64,000 nt of DNA from Mesostigma viride (lineage: Eukaryota > Streptophyta > Mesostigmatophyceae > Mesostigmatales > Mesostigmataceae): assembly GCA_009746045.1 (NCBI GenBank), contig RPFO01000016.1, forward strand, positions 12,501 to 76,500, written 5' to 3'. Each line of letters opens with the position of its first letter. Position 1 is the first letter of the stretch. A program made the position numbers and the translations under genes. The notes under the pieces are model-generated. The model was not told the DNA's origin. It made no database searches and saw only the letters and a list, made by a program, of their open reading frames with translations. Below are positions 33,469-64,000 of the stretch, one piece after another.

Positions 33469-36400
33469 TCACTGCCGCTTCTTGGACTTGCTGGATACCC
33501 GCAGCGCGAACTCCTCGTGCGCGGGCCGCACCGGCTTCTCCGGCAGCGCCAAGCGGAGGCCATTCTCTATGCCGGCCGCCAGCAGGAAATCGGCCGCGGC
33601 GAGCAGCAGCAGGTAGCCCCTCAGCTCTAAAGGGAGGGGGACGAGCTCCAGCCACTCGCTGAAGGGGCGGATGAAGTCGCCCGCCATCTAGGGTAGGGGG
33701 GGAAGGGACAGCACCCATAAGAATAATGGCATGACTGTAAGGATAATGGCACTGGCCCGAATGGCGGCATCACAGCAGGTATGATGGCCTTGGGGATAAT
33801 GGCAGAAAACCTTAAGCTTGATGGCACTGGACGAAATGGCAACACGAAGGTGAGGGATGCTTCTTAGACGGCAGTTTATGAGCCCCAATCAGCCCTCAAC
33901 CGCAAACTCAAAACAGTTTGCTTGACATCATCCTTGCGCTCCTACCCCAATCTCGAGCCTTTCCCTTCCCTGATTCCTCTGCGAACCGCCAGCTAAACCA
34001 CCGTACTCCTGGGTCAAAAGCATTTGCCCCCCCCCTTCATCCCCCCCCCAAACACCTGTCTTGTGGTCACCACACTGGGGTCCCCCCCATTATCATTCCT
34101 GCCCCTTCAAAAACCATTGCCCGCCAGGGAGAGCGCGACTCTTCTCTCCCCCCTTATGATGCCCCCCATAATCCATTCCTGCCCTTTTTTCCACGTCCTC
34201 CTTTCATCCCCACTCCTGCTCATAAAAGCCACATCCCATCTTCCTGCTCCACACTTGCCAGCTCACGTCCACGTGTCAGGTGCCTCTCCATGGCGCCAGT
34301 TGCCCCCCCCCCCCCCCCCCCCTCCCGGCCCCACCATCCATCCACGCCCTCATCATCATCCCCTTCCACTCTTCAAAGCGTTCACTGCAGACTGCAGACT
34401 AGGGTGCAGCTCTTTTATAACCTGTAGGCCGCTCAGTGCCAGGTAGAGCCCGTTTCTATGGGGGCCTCTGTTTCCATCCACCCCCGTTCTCCCCTCTCCT
34501 CCTCCCCCACCGCCCCCCCCTTCCACTCACCCCCAGGTAGACCGTGACTTGTCTATGCCCCTCTCGTCGCACCACCAACCGTCAAGTGCCCCCCCCCCCC
34601 CCCAACCGTCAAGAGCCCCCCCCCCCACCACCAACCGTCAAGTGCCCCCCCCCCGCCCCATTTAGCCCTCTCCCTGCTCCCCCCCCCTCCCCTCACCGCC
34701 AGGTAGAGTGCGCCCGTGCCGGAGAGCGCGTAGAAGAATGCCTTGTTCTCAAACAGGCTGTCGTTGAATGGGTGGCCCACGTAGTTGACCGCAAACGTGC
34801 ACACCTGGCAAAAAAACGGGCGGCATGAGATGACAAGCCCCAACAGAGTCAGCAGTGGCAAGCCCCGACAGCGTTTCAGCTTGCACCAAGATCGACGGGC
34901 GCCGATACATGCTTGAGACGTCTCATACATGCTTGCGTGGTTTGATAGGCACGTGCTTGAGCCCCGATACATGATTAAAACCATTTATATTCATTCTATT
35001 ATCATAATACTAGACACACGCCTGTATTGATATGCCTGTAACGATTGGTGTTCCAGCCCTGACCGCAGGAGGTGACCCACGTGACACATAACTGGTGAGA
35101 GGTGAGCGCACTTTGACGCGGGCAAGTAGGGCACCACTGACCACACCTACCGGGAGCAGCCGAGTATGCATGAGATAGCCCTTACCCACACTCCGCCGCA
35201 CATGCTCCTTTGAGTACTCCTTTGCGTACTCTTCTCGTGTAAAGCAGTGCTGGCCGATGTAAAGCAGTGTACCTGGATGAGCATGTTGCTGATGTACGGC
35301 ACGGTGTGGATGGGGCAGCCACGGGTGCTGGCATCCCTAAAGACCTATAACTAGACTTGATGCGGGGTAGCCCCCCTCCCAGGTGTTGCCCCTACCTGGA
35401 TGAGCATGTTAACGATGTAGGACACGGTGTTGACGATGTTGGGCGCAAAGGTGCCGTCCGCGTCCATCTTCACGTCGGCAGGGAGGAGGCTCTGCGTGGC
35501 CCGGGTGGTTGGGGGGTGGGGGAAGAAGAGAGCAGGGGAGAAGGCATGTCAAGAATCCTTTTCCAGAAAGGAAGATGGCAAGCAAGCTCTGCGCAGCCCC
35601 AGAGAAAAAGGGGGCGGGGGGGGGGGGCGGCCGGGGGAGAGAGAGGGCCGGAAGAAACCGGGGTGCACACATGCATGAGAACTGTGGGCATGTCAAGGGA
35701 GGGGGCAGCAGGTGTTTGAAGGAGGTTACGCAAAATGATGTCAAGGCTCCAGAGGAACACAGCCATGGGCAACGGTATACCTGTCTTCTTCCAGAAACCG
35801 ACCAAGAGGATATTTCTGGAATGATCGAGCACAAATCGACAAATAGGGCCGTTCAACAGACAGATACGGCCACACTTCCCTTGCAACCACATACTAACCG
35901 TAAATTCATAGCCTCCTGCTAAAACCACGTGTGCATGGTAAAATCAAGGCAGGTGACGCCACTTGTCCACACACAACTTGCTCGCACATACGCTTCGCGA
36001 TGCCAAGGGAATGATTGGCACTGTGAGTACATATGCCTGTCACGAGTGGCTGCATGTCCATAGGCATTCCACCAAAGAGCTGAGCCTGGGTCACATGGGT
36101 ATGCATCACATGCTGCATAGAACTCCCTGGCGTGCCTCCCCCCTTTCACAATCCCCCAACTTCTTCCTCCCTTATTCCTCCATCCTCCTCCCTCCCTCCC
36201 TCCCTCCTCTTTCCTCCTCCCTCCCTCCTCCCTCCCTCCCTCCCTCCCTCCCTCCCTCCCTCCCTCCCTCCCCCCCTCCCTCCCTCCCTCCCTCCCTCCC
36301 TCCCTCCCTCCTCCCTCCCTCCCTCCCTCCCTCCCTCCTCCCTCCTCCCTCCCTCCCTCCTCCTCCCTCCCTCCCTCCCTCCTCCCTCTTTCCTCCCTCT

Positions 36401-63100: not shown

Positions 63101-64000
63101 TACGTGCCATCACGGTGTCCGTCGCCCCCTGGCCGTCCGTTCTACGTGCCTTGCCATTGCGTCCCTGCAGGTGCAAGGACCTGAAGCACCTCATCTACTA
63201 CAGGTGAGTGCAGTGTGCATAGATAGGACAAGGGTCCCGTTATCTAACACTAAGAAATATTTAAGCAAGAGTAATGTGTTGCCAGGGAGTTTGAGGGTGT
63301 TCATGGGTCTCTGTTGGTTGGGGAGTAGCAGCAGCGTAGTGAGTGGCCAGTTGCGGTTATCACGGCGGACAAACCAACTGGCTATGGGCCATGCAGAAAT
63401 CATGGTTCCTTCCTTAGTGACCCTGAGTTTCCCCATGAGGCTATCAGGGCAGCATGCCCATTCGATTTGCGGTGCGCATGCATTCATGGGTGGTCCCTGT
63501 TGTCGATGGCTGTTCTATACATTGCTATTTGCCGCCCTTTCCATCGGCATACATTACAGTTCTTTCTCAGGCATGCATCTCGCTCCATTTAGCCCTGTAA
63601 CGCCCTTTAACTTACGTCCAATCAACCCGCATTCTACCCCAACGTTACGGAGCGGGCTCCACACTCAGGATGTAGTTCGTGGGCAACAAGGACCGTTGTG
63701 GTACTGCGCTCGATGTTCCAATACAGCATTTGCCCCTCCTCTCCCCCGCCCCACGCAACGTTAAGTGACCCCCATTCTTCCTCCCTCCTAAATTAACCCT
63801 ATTCCTCCCCCCCCCCCCCCCCCTTTACTCCCCAAGTGCAACACGGGCCATCAACCCACCGTGCTGTTTTATTCTCTGTTCACATGTTTGCCCCTCCCCC
63901 CCCCCTACATGTTTGCCCCTCCCCTACATGTGTTCCCCCCCCCCCCCCAATCACCACCATCATTAACTCCATCCGCCCCTGACATCACCCCGTTCCCTCA
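60198..64000 (+). CDS. PRP8: PRP8, U5 snRNP pre-mRNA splicing factor (5' part, runs off window)
   Basis: Exon 1 is 60,198-61,400, exon 2 is 61,838-62,481 and exon 3 is 63,171-63,203; the gene continues beyond the window. The exons join in phase to about 626 residues of a protein that is normally about 2,300-2,400. The start [10 protein letters not shown] is followed by a Pro-rich segment and then the highly conserved N-terminal block: [53 protein letters not shown]. In exon 2 come [20 protein letters not shown] and [20 protein letters not shown], in the PRO8NT-PROCN region. Exon 3 gives [14 protein letters not shown]8 is the central scaffold of the spliceosome that holds the U5 and U6 RNAs and both splice sites. 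The next exon is not before 64,000, so intron 3 is at least 797 bp. An upstream in-frame ATG-less extension exists; the ATG at 60,198 gives the standard N-terminus. Confidence 0.97.
62590..62719 (+). repeat. Two echoes of PRP8 exon 2 3' end with donor, intron 2
   Basis: The real end is RLMRQIR plus AT and GTGAGT (62,460-62,487). Echo 1 (62,590-62,622) reads RIMRPIH then GG and GTAAGC. Echo 2 (62,683-62,719) reads LVRRIH then AT and GTGGGT. Both keep a usable 5' splice site. Confidence 0.75.
62733..62880. repeat. 28-bp GGTGGCAAGAATGCGTGTTG minisatellite, PRP8 intron 2
   Basis: Five near-perfect units ending in GTAGGTGT. Confidence 0.9.
63204..64000. other. PRP8 intron 3 (partial)
   Basis: No coding match to the next PRP8 segment. 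It contains poly-C runs at 63,806-63,823, 63,893-63,903 and 63,935-63,948. Confidence 0.7.

Follow-up and report, generated by a model that had tools for sequence, protein, structure and literature searches.

Do the introns of Mesostigma viride carry copies of the exon ends that flank them and, if so, what process left them there? The question is raised by a 64,000-nt stretch of DNA (G000:C1768:12501-76500), referred to as a whole as the window, in which the genes for a P5A-type ATPase (P5A) and for PRP8 adjoin. The first-pass annotation had described partial copies of exon ends, adjoining splice sites included, at no fewer than 12 borders of these two genes, and had read these "echoes" as a genome-level process of tandem duplication for which it knew no standard name.

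We modeled exons with a purpose-written spliced protein-to-genome aligner, admitting GT or GC donors and only AG acceptors, in a genome of 440 Mb and 2243 contigs; the published M. viride assembly measures 441.8 Mb, with a mean intron length of 1142 bp (PMC6947507). A draft P5A protein translated from the window had a M. viride protein model, P0001, as its best match. By tblastn, P0001 matched the P5A exons at mostly 93.6 to 100% identity, with mismatches at match ends that overran exon borders. PRP8, which lies mostly outside the window, was read from further stretches of the same contig. Additional genes, namely four ClpB-like genes, a GOGAT gene and parts of CarB and ValS, were selected by conservation and not by echo content, and were modeled with E. 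coli proteins. As these references are more distant, some borders are less sure, and doubtful ones were left out of the counts (five ClpB-like introns and three GOGAT acceptors). The full sample comprised 96 modeled introns (93 acceptors) from nine genes on eight contigs.

Several further features deserve mention in their own right. The sole non-GT donor in the P5A and PRP8 models is a GC donor (AAG, then GCAAGT) at P5A intron 14 (46186-46194, minus strand). Beside an echo-bearing border, P0001 ends in a read-through of the P5A exon 20 donor into intron 20 (39980-40022, minus strand), either intron retention or an annotation error. Elsewhere in the window, an open frame that carries a reverse transcriptase domain (RVT_1, E = 7 × 10−24; 462-2099, plus strand) is probably a non-LTR retroelement, and frames related to it were seen by eye outside the window near 82-83 kb. 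Large minisatellites lie within P5A introns 15 (44041-45301, 17 × 74 bp) and 13 (46761-47662, ~24 × 38 bp), and a CATC microsatellite of 85 units (6943-7281) yields an open frame of HPSI repeats. In the assembly, contigs C2011 and C557 hold long frames, uninterrupted by introns, that encode ClpB (861 aa), a ValS-like protein and GltB (2016 aa), a composition that suggests bacterial contigs from a contaminant or an associate.

We determined how often an exon end matches its own neighboring intron better than it matches the other introns. For P5A and PRP8 alone, the own intron was the best of 48 in 20/48 cases on the donor side (expected 1, P = 2 × 10−21) and in 10/48 on the acceptor side (P = 5 × 10−8), and mean donor scores were 28.3 (own intron), 19.3 (reverse complement) and 17.9 (other introns). 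Across the full sample, the last 60 nt of an exon ranked its own downstream intron first in 29/96 cases (expected 1; reverse complement 1/96), and the first 60 nt ranked the own upstream intron first in 15/93 (reverse complement 0). These reverse-complement and other-intron controls rule out chance and codon bias; chance is also ruled out by a Markov shuffle of the introns, which gave 0 repeat pairs against 159 in the real introns. First-ranking donors were found in P5A (5/26), PRP8 (13/22), ClpB-like genes (4/21), GOGAT (1/15), CarB (4/10) and ValS (2/2), and first-ranking acceptors in the same genes at 2/26, 7/22, 1/21, 2/12, 2/10 and 1/2, respectively. Donor counts varied between five genes more than chance allows (P = 0.003); most PRP8 echoes sit outside the window, and two ClpB-like genes (ClpB_L026 and ClpB_L029) gave donor echoes in 0/7 introns with 60-nt border windows. 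The echoes are therefore real and not limited to two genes: the comparison of match rates that the first-pass annotation had proposed came out far higher for own introns than for other pairings, and its expectation of a process with wider reach is supported by echoes in several genes on other contigs.

The individual borders named at the outset fared less evenly. In our exon numbering, eight of the twelve rank first among the 48 introns: the donors of P5A exons 6, 10, 16, 20 and 25 and of PRP8 exon 2, and the acceptors of P5A exons 18 and 20. Of these, P5A donor 6 is unconvincing, its reverse complement scoring equally (30). P5A donor 26 is borderline at rank 2, and we found no support for P5A donor 13 (rank 32) or for acceptors 14 (rank 47) and 16 (rank 10). 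The claim that echoes keep recognizable peptides holds for an 18-residue peptide, recovered by tblastn (20 aa, 65%, E = 0.001), and for an 11-residue peptide present in the frame listing; a 15-residue peptide was checked as DNA only, with 33 of 41 nt matching. Table 1 lists the echoes aligned individually.

Table 1 Genes and echoes in the window; the individually aligned echoes, like the head-to-tail and spaced examples in the text, are best cases picked by score
Feature	Position (nt)	Strand	Basis
P5A-type ATPase gene, 27 exons/26 introns; model ends slightly short of true end	33532..59444	-	Spliced alignment; tblastn with P0001
PRP8 gene start (23 exons; continues to ~80831 in window numbering, outside the window)	60258..64000	+	Spliced alignment with P0124 and P0194
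Donor echo, P5A exon 25 (32/38 nt), then GTA; intron half dissimilar	35273..35310	-	Alignment
Donor echo, P5A exon 20 (20/21 nt), then GTGGGCACT; intron half similar too	39916..39936	-	Alignment
Acceptor echo, P5A exon 20 (33/41 nt), preceded by CAG	40393..40433	-	Alignment
Border-spanning repeat, start of P5A intron 16 copied (33 nt, 91%) with a few exon nt, lag 122	43288..43320	-	
Weaker additional echo, P5A exon 10 (39/51)	50230..50280	-	Alignment
Weaker additional echo, P5A exon 10 (37/54)	50369..50422	-	Alignment
Donor echo, P5A exon 10 (45/54 nt), begins 60 nt into intron 10	50708..50761	-	Alignment
Weak donor echo, P5A exon 6 (19/23); reverse complement scores equally	53784..53806	-	Alignment
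Donor echo, PRP8 exon 1 (25/28 columns), ends 11 nt before border	61455..61481	+	Alignment
Donor echo, PRP8 exon 2 (18/20)	62591..62610	+	Alignment
Second donor echo, PRP8 exon 2 (45/66 columns), then GTGGGT	62646..62710	+	Alignment

We next consider how the echoes are built. At a score of at least 30, 38 donor echoes occurred in 27/96 introns, with exon parts of 17 to 66 nt (median 31.5); 34/38 have their end no more than 4 nt from the border, and the nearest copies sit at a median depth of 107 nt in the intron. The acceptor side held 23 echoes in 14/93 introns, of which all but two (21/23) begin at most 2 nt from the border. To profile positions, we asked which 60-nt windows have their best match in the own intron, leaving out three introns shorter than 240 nt and windows rich in masked simple repeats. 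On the donor side this was so for 1/146 windows in the exon interior (−240 to −60), 28/87 at −60 to 0, 41/92 at −45 to 15, 28/91 at 0 to 60 and 16/87 at 60 to 120; on the acceptor side the values were 0/137 in the exon interior, 21/86 at −45 to 15 and 11/86 at 60 to 120. Copied donor borders were thus commoner than copied acceptor borders (41/92 versus 21/86, P = 0.007). Echoes mostly end at the border or extend into the intron; in no case do they run on into the exon that follows. The border itself is almost always part of a copy that reaches the intron, as tandem duplication demands. The exon part was shorter than half of the copy distance in 23/25 donors and 13/14 acceptors; copies with a larger exon share may have been selected against, or the intron in between may have grown afterwards.

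Some copies abut and others are spaced. Head-to-tail units run across the border in PRP8 introns 12 (56 nt, repeated) and 21 (97 nt) and in CarB introns 8 (41 nt, identical) and 4 (47 nt, 10 of them exon), and in ValS intron 2 an array of a 9-nt unit begins at the border. Behind the nearest echo, the intron half resembles the real intron start at the P = 0.05 level in 7/25 donors (expected 1.3) and 3/14 acceptors, and is without recognizable similarity in 18/25 donors and 11/14 acceptors. For diverged pairs, this loss can be due to decay, since both intron halves drift and only one exon half does. Decay cannot explain it where an exon copy is near-identical and the intron half unrelated, as in ClpB_L028 intron 7 (46/47), CarB introns 9 (36/38) and 10 (last 28 nt identical) and ValS intron 2 (29/30), all of which stop within ~6 nt of the border and then give way to unrelated sequence; some near-identical echoes are parted from the exon by an unrelated spacer. 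Candidate sources for these near-identical copies are a duplication that took in filler, a subsequent conversion by the exon, and a process that recognizes the junction. Such copies are not what plain tandem duplication predicts, and they count against the explanation that we favor below.

What the copied splice sites do bears on several alternatives at once. As the first-pass annotation had noticed, many echoes keep their site: among exact-border echoes, GT is retained in 16/21 and AG in 13/16, where ~78% is expected from identity. Retention that close to the neutral rate makes the copies look like fossils. Identity at codon positions 1, 2 and 3 of the exon part is 85, 88 and 82%, and these figures, though small in number, fit a copy that would decay neutrally next to an exon under constraint. 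Multiples of 3 are not overrepresented among the distances (6, 7 and 14 for remainders 0, 1 and 2), and in-frame alternative exons are rejected on that ground. The same distances, together with the near-neutral retention and the many echoes that lack a site, make a regulatory role highly improbable, in which selection would maintain the copies as working decoy sites for splicing and for which the retained GT or AG in many echoes might otherwise speak. RNA-based copying that respects splice junctions, for example repair of an intron break by a free 5′ exon or a pre-mRNA fragment, would account for the four near-identical copies that end at or near the junction. It is nevertheless very unlikely: an exon-only copy would be followed by GT in about 1 of 16 cases rather than 16 of 21, other young copies extend far into the intron, and in 0/27 cases did the sequence behind a donor echo best match the next exon. 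That last result also excludes processed retrocopies of spliced mRNA. Random templated insertion from anywhere nearby is rejected because such copies would include exon interiors. The unrelated spacer flanked by some copies recalls mobile intron-like elements (introners) or target-site duplications, a reading to which we give almost no weight and which we reject for these 96 introns: 25 spacers gave one blastn match to another intron (24 nt, same gene), 3/4560 intron pairs matched at E = 1 × 10−4, donor borders best matched their own acceptor border in 0/96, and no shared spacer family was seen.

A closer contender is duplication biased to exon–intron borders, for instance because transcription or splicing causes breaks or nicks there. 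Border targeting was first set aside since interiors are also rich in direct repeats. Direct repeats cover 29% of P5A and 45% of PRP8 intron tiles (inverted 1.6 and 5%), and interior intron tiles gave 403 direct versus 20 inverted repeats of 2157. In genomic stretches that were unselected but not random (L005-L007 come from the window's contig, the rest, on chosen contigs, have base 30001 as their first, L008 consists entirely of N, and L012 and L013 were too short for use), direct local repeats occurred in 18% of tiles and inverted ones in 5%; genomic tiles gave 326 direct versus 52 inverted of 3479. A like-for-like test with 60-nt windows, under the same exclusions as the position profile, restored border targeting as a rival: 106/406 intron-interior windows ranked first (inverted 8) compared with 41/92 at donor borders, a 1.7-fold excess (P = 9 × 10−4). 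The excess is marked in PRP8 (16/20 versus 29/96) and absent in P5A (7/26 versus 35/115). CarB and ClpB_L028 have interior repeats in only 4% and 3% of 40-nt tiles, yet carry donor echoes in 3/10 and 3/5 introns, and interior repeats hardly predict border echoes per intron (rho = 0.04, P = 0.71; in a second test, rho = 0.19, P = 0.09), to some degree an argument against a wholly general process. A border excess of up to ~2-fold could, however, stem from selection on the exon half, since a pair with one conserved half may stay visible about twice as long. The borders thus read as ordinary sites of a general duplication process, with no border bias needed, and we regard such a bias as possible but unlikely. 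The earlier suggestion of a process acting on borders as such is accordingly not upheld as stated, given the direct repeats that also fill intron interiors. A composite account is doubtful to a greater degree: introns would largely be the product of duplications that recur, for which exon borders would serve as a permanent source, and part of the copies, the near-identical ones that end at the junction, would come from border-biased or junction-aware (RNA-templated) repair.

The copies are direct and local, span borders, leave exon interiors uncopied and recur in several genes. We conclude that the echoes are probably decaying copies from local tandem duplication of short segments, abutting or spaced, in the M. 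viride nuclear genome. A short DNA segment spanning an exon–intron border would be duplicated locally, perhaps when staggered breaks or paired nicks are filled in and joined by error-prone repair. The gene would still work while the original exon-side splice site is used, and the second copy, exon end plus splice site, would stay in the intron. The pair would remain recognizable because the copy decays while selection keeps the exon, so that borders would be visible passively through their conserved exon half. Repeated rounds would make introns longer and add further GT or AG sites, and our results support the first-pass annotation on duplication of this kind across borders. That donor copies outnumber acceptor copies may reflect greater harm from a copied acceptor that lies upstream of the genuine one.

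Selection keeps the exon half of every duplication that spans a border, which makes these duplications a readable record of intron lengthening. If the sampled rate holds genome-wide, M. viride would offer, in very large numbers, natural pairs of an original and a copied splice site at known distance. Combined with RNA sequencing, these pairs could measure how the spliceosome chooses between near-identical sites, and could also address the excess of donor over acceptor copies and the shortness of the exon part in donor copies. Border copies can, in addition, mislead gene prediction.

The process does have established names, small tandem duplication and repair-mediated duplication, although border echoes of such density, or in Mesostigma, were not found in a literature search that mostly excluded subscription papers. 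PMC8355091, whose references include Vaughn and Bennetzen (2014) and Schiml (2016), has small tandem duplications arise by fill-in at staggered breaks and calls them the most frequent short insertions in human DNA; they are likewise short, direct and on-site, tens of bp long, and common in plants and humans. The Mesostigma copies share the direct orientation near the original (29/96 direct versus 1/96 reverse complement). Those duplications were measured as mutations in cells, whereas Mesostigma holds old and young intron copies at high density, many of them at splice borders. In human introns, as in other DNA, repair-mediated duplications are also closely linked copies, some of them partial exon plus intron, and splice borders are rarely involved in that set, with 4 partial exon/intron donors among 824 (PMC2671141); they were found through interrupted repeats, a different method, which precludes a direct comparison of rates. 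Splice sites are likewise crossed or created by tandem duplication in intron gain under the Rogers model, as described for a new potato intron made by a border-crossing duplication (PMC4974935) and for some novel fly introns (PMC2891723); there a new intron is created, whereas the Mesostigma duplications lengthen existing ones. Direct repeats at exon–intron borders are likewise described in PMC11782384, but these are 4 to 30 bp long and lie between the 5′ and 3′ borders, while donor and acceptor borders in Mesostigma are mutually unlike (0/96). Mesostigma seems set apart from the published cases by the density of its border copies, known from one genome, and by the lengthening of existing introns.
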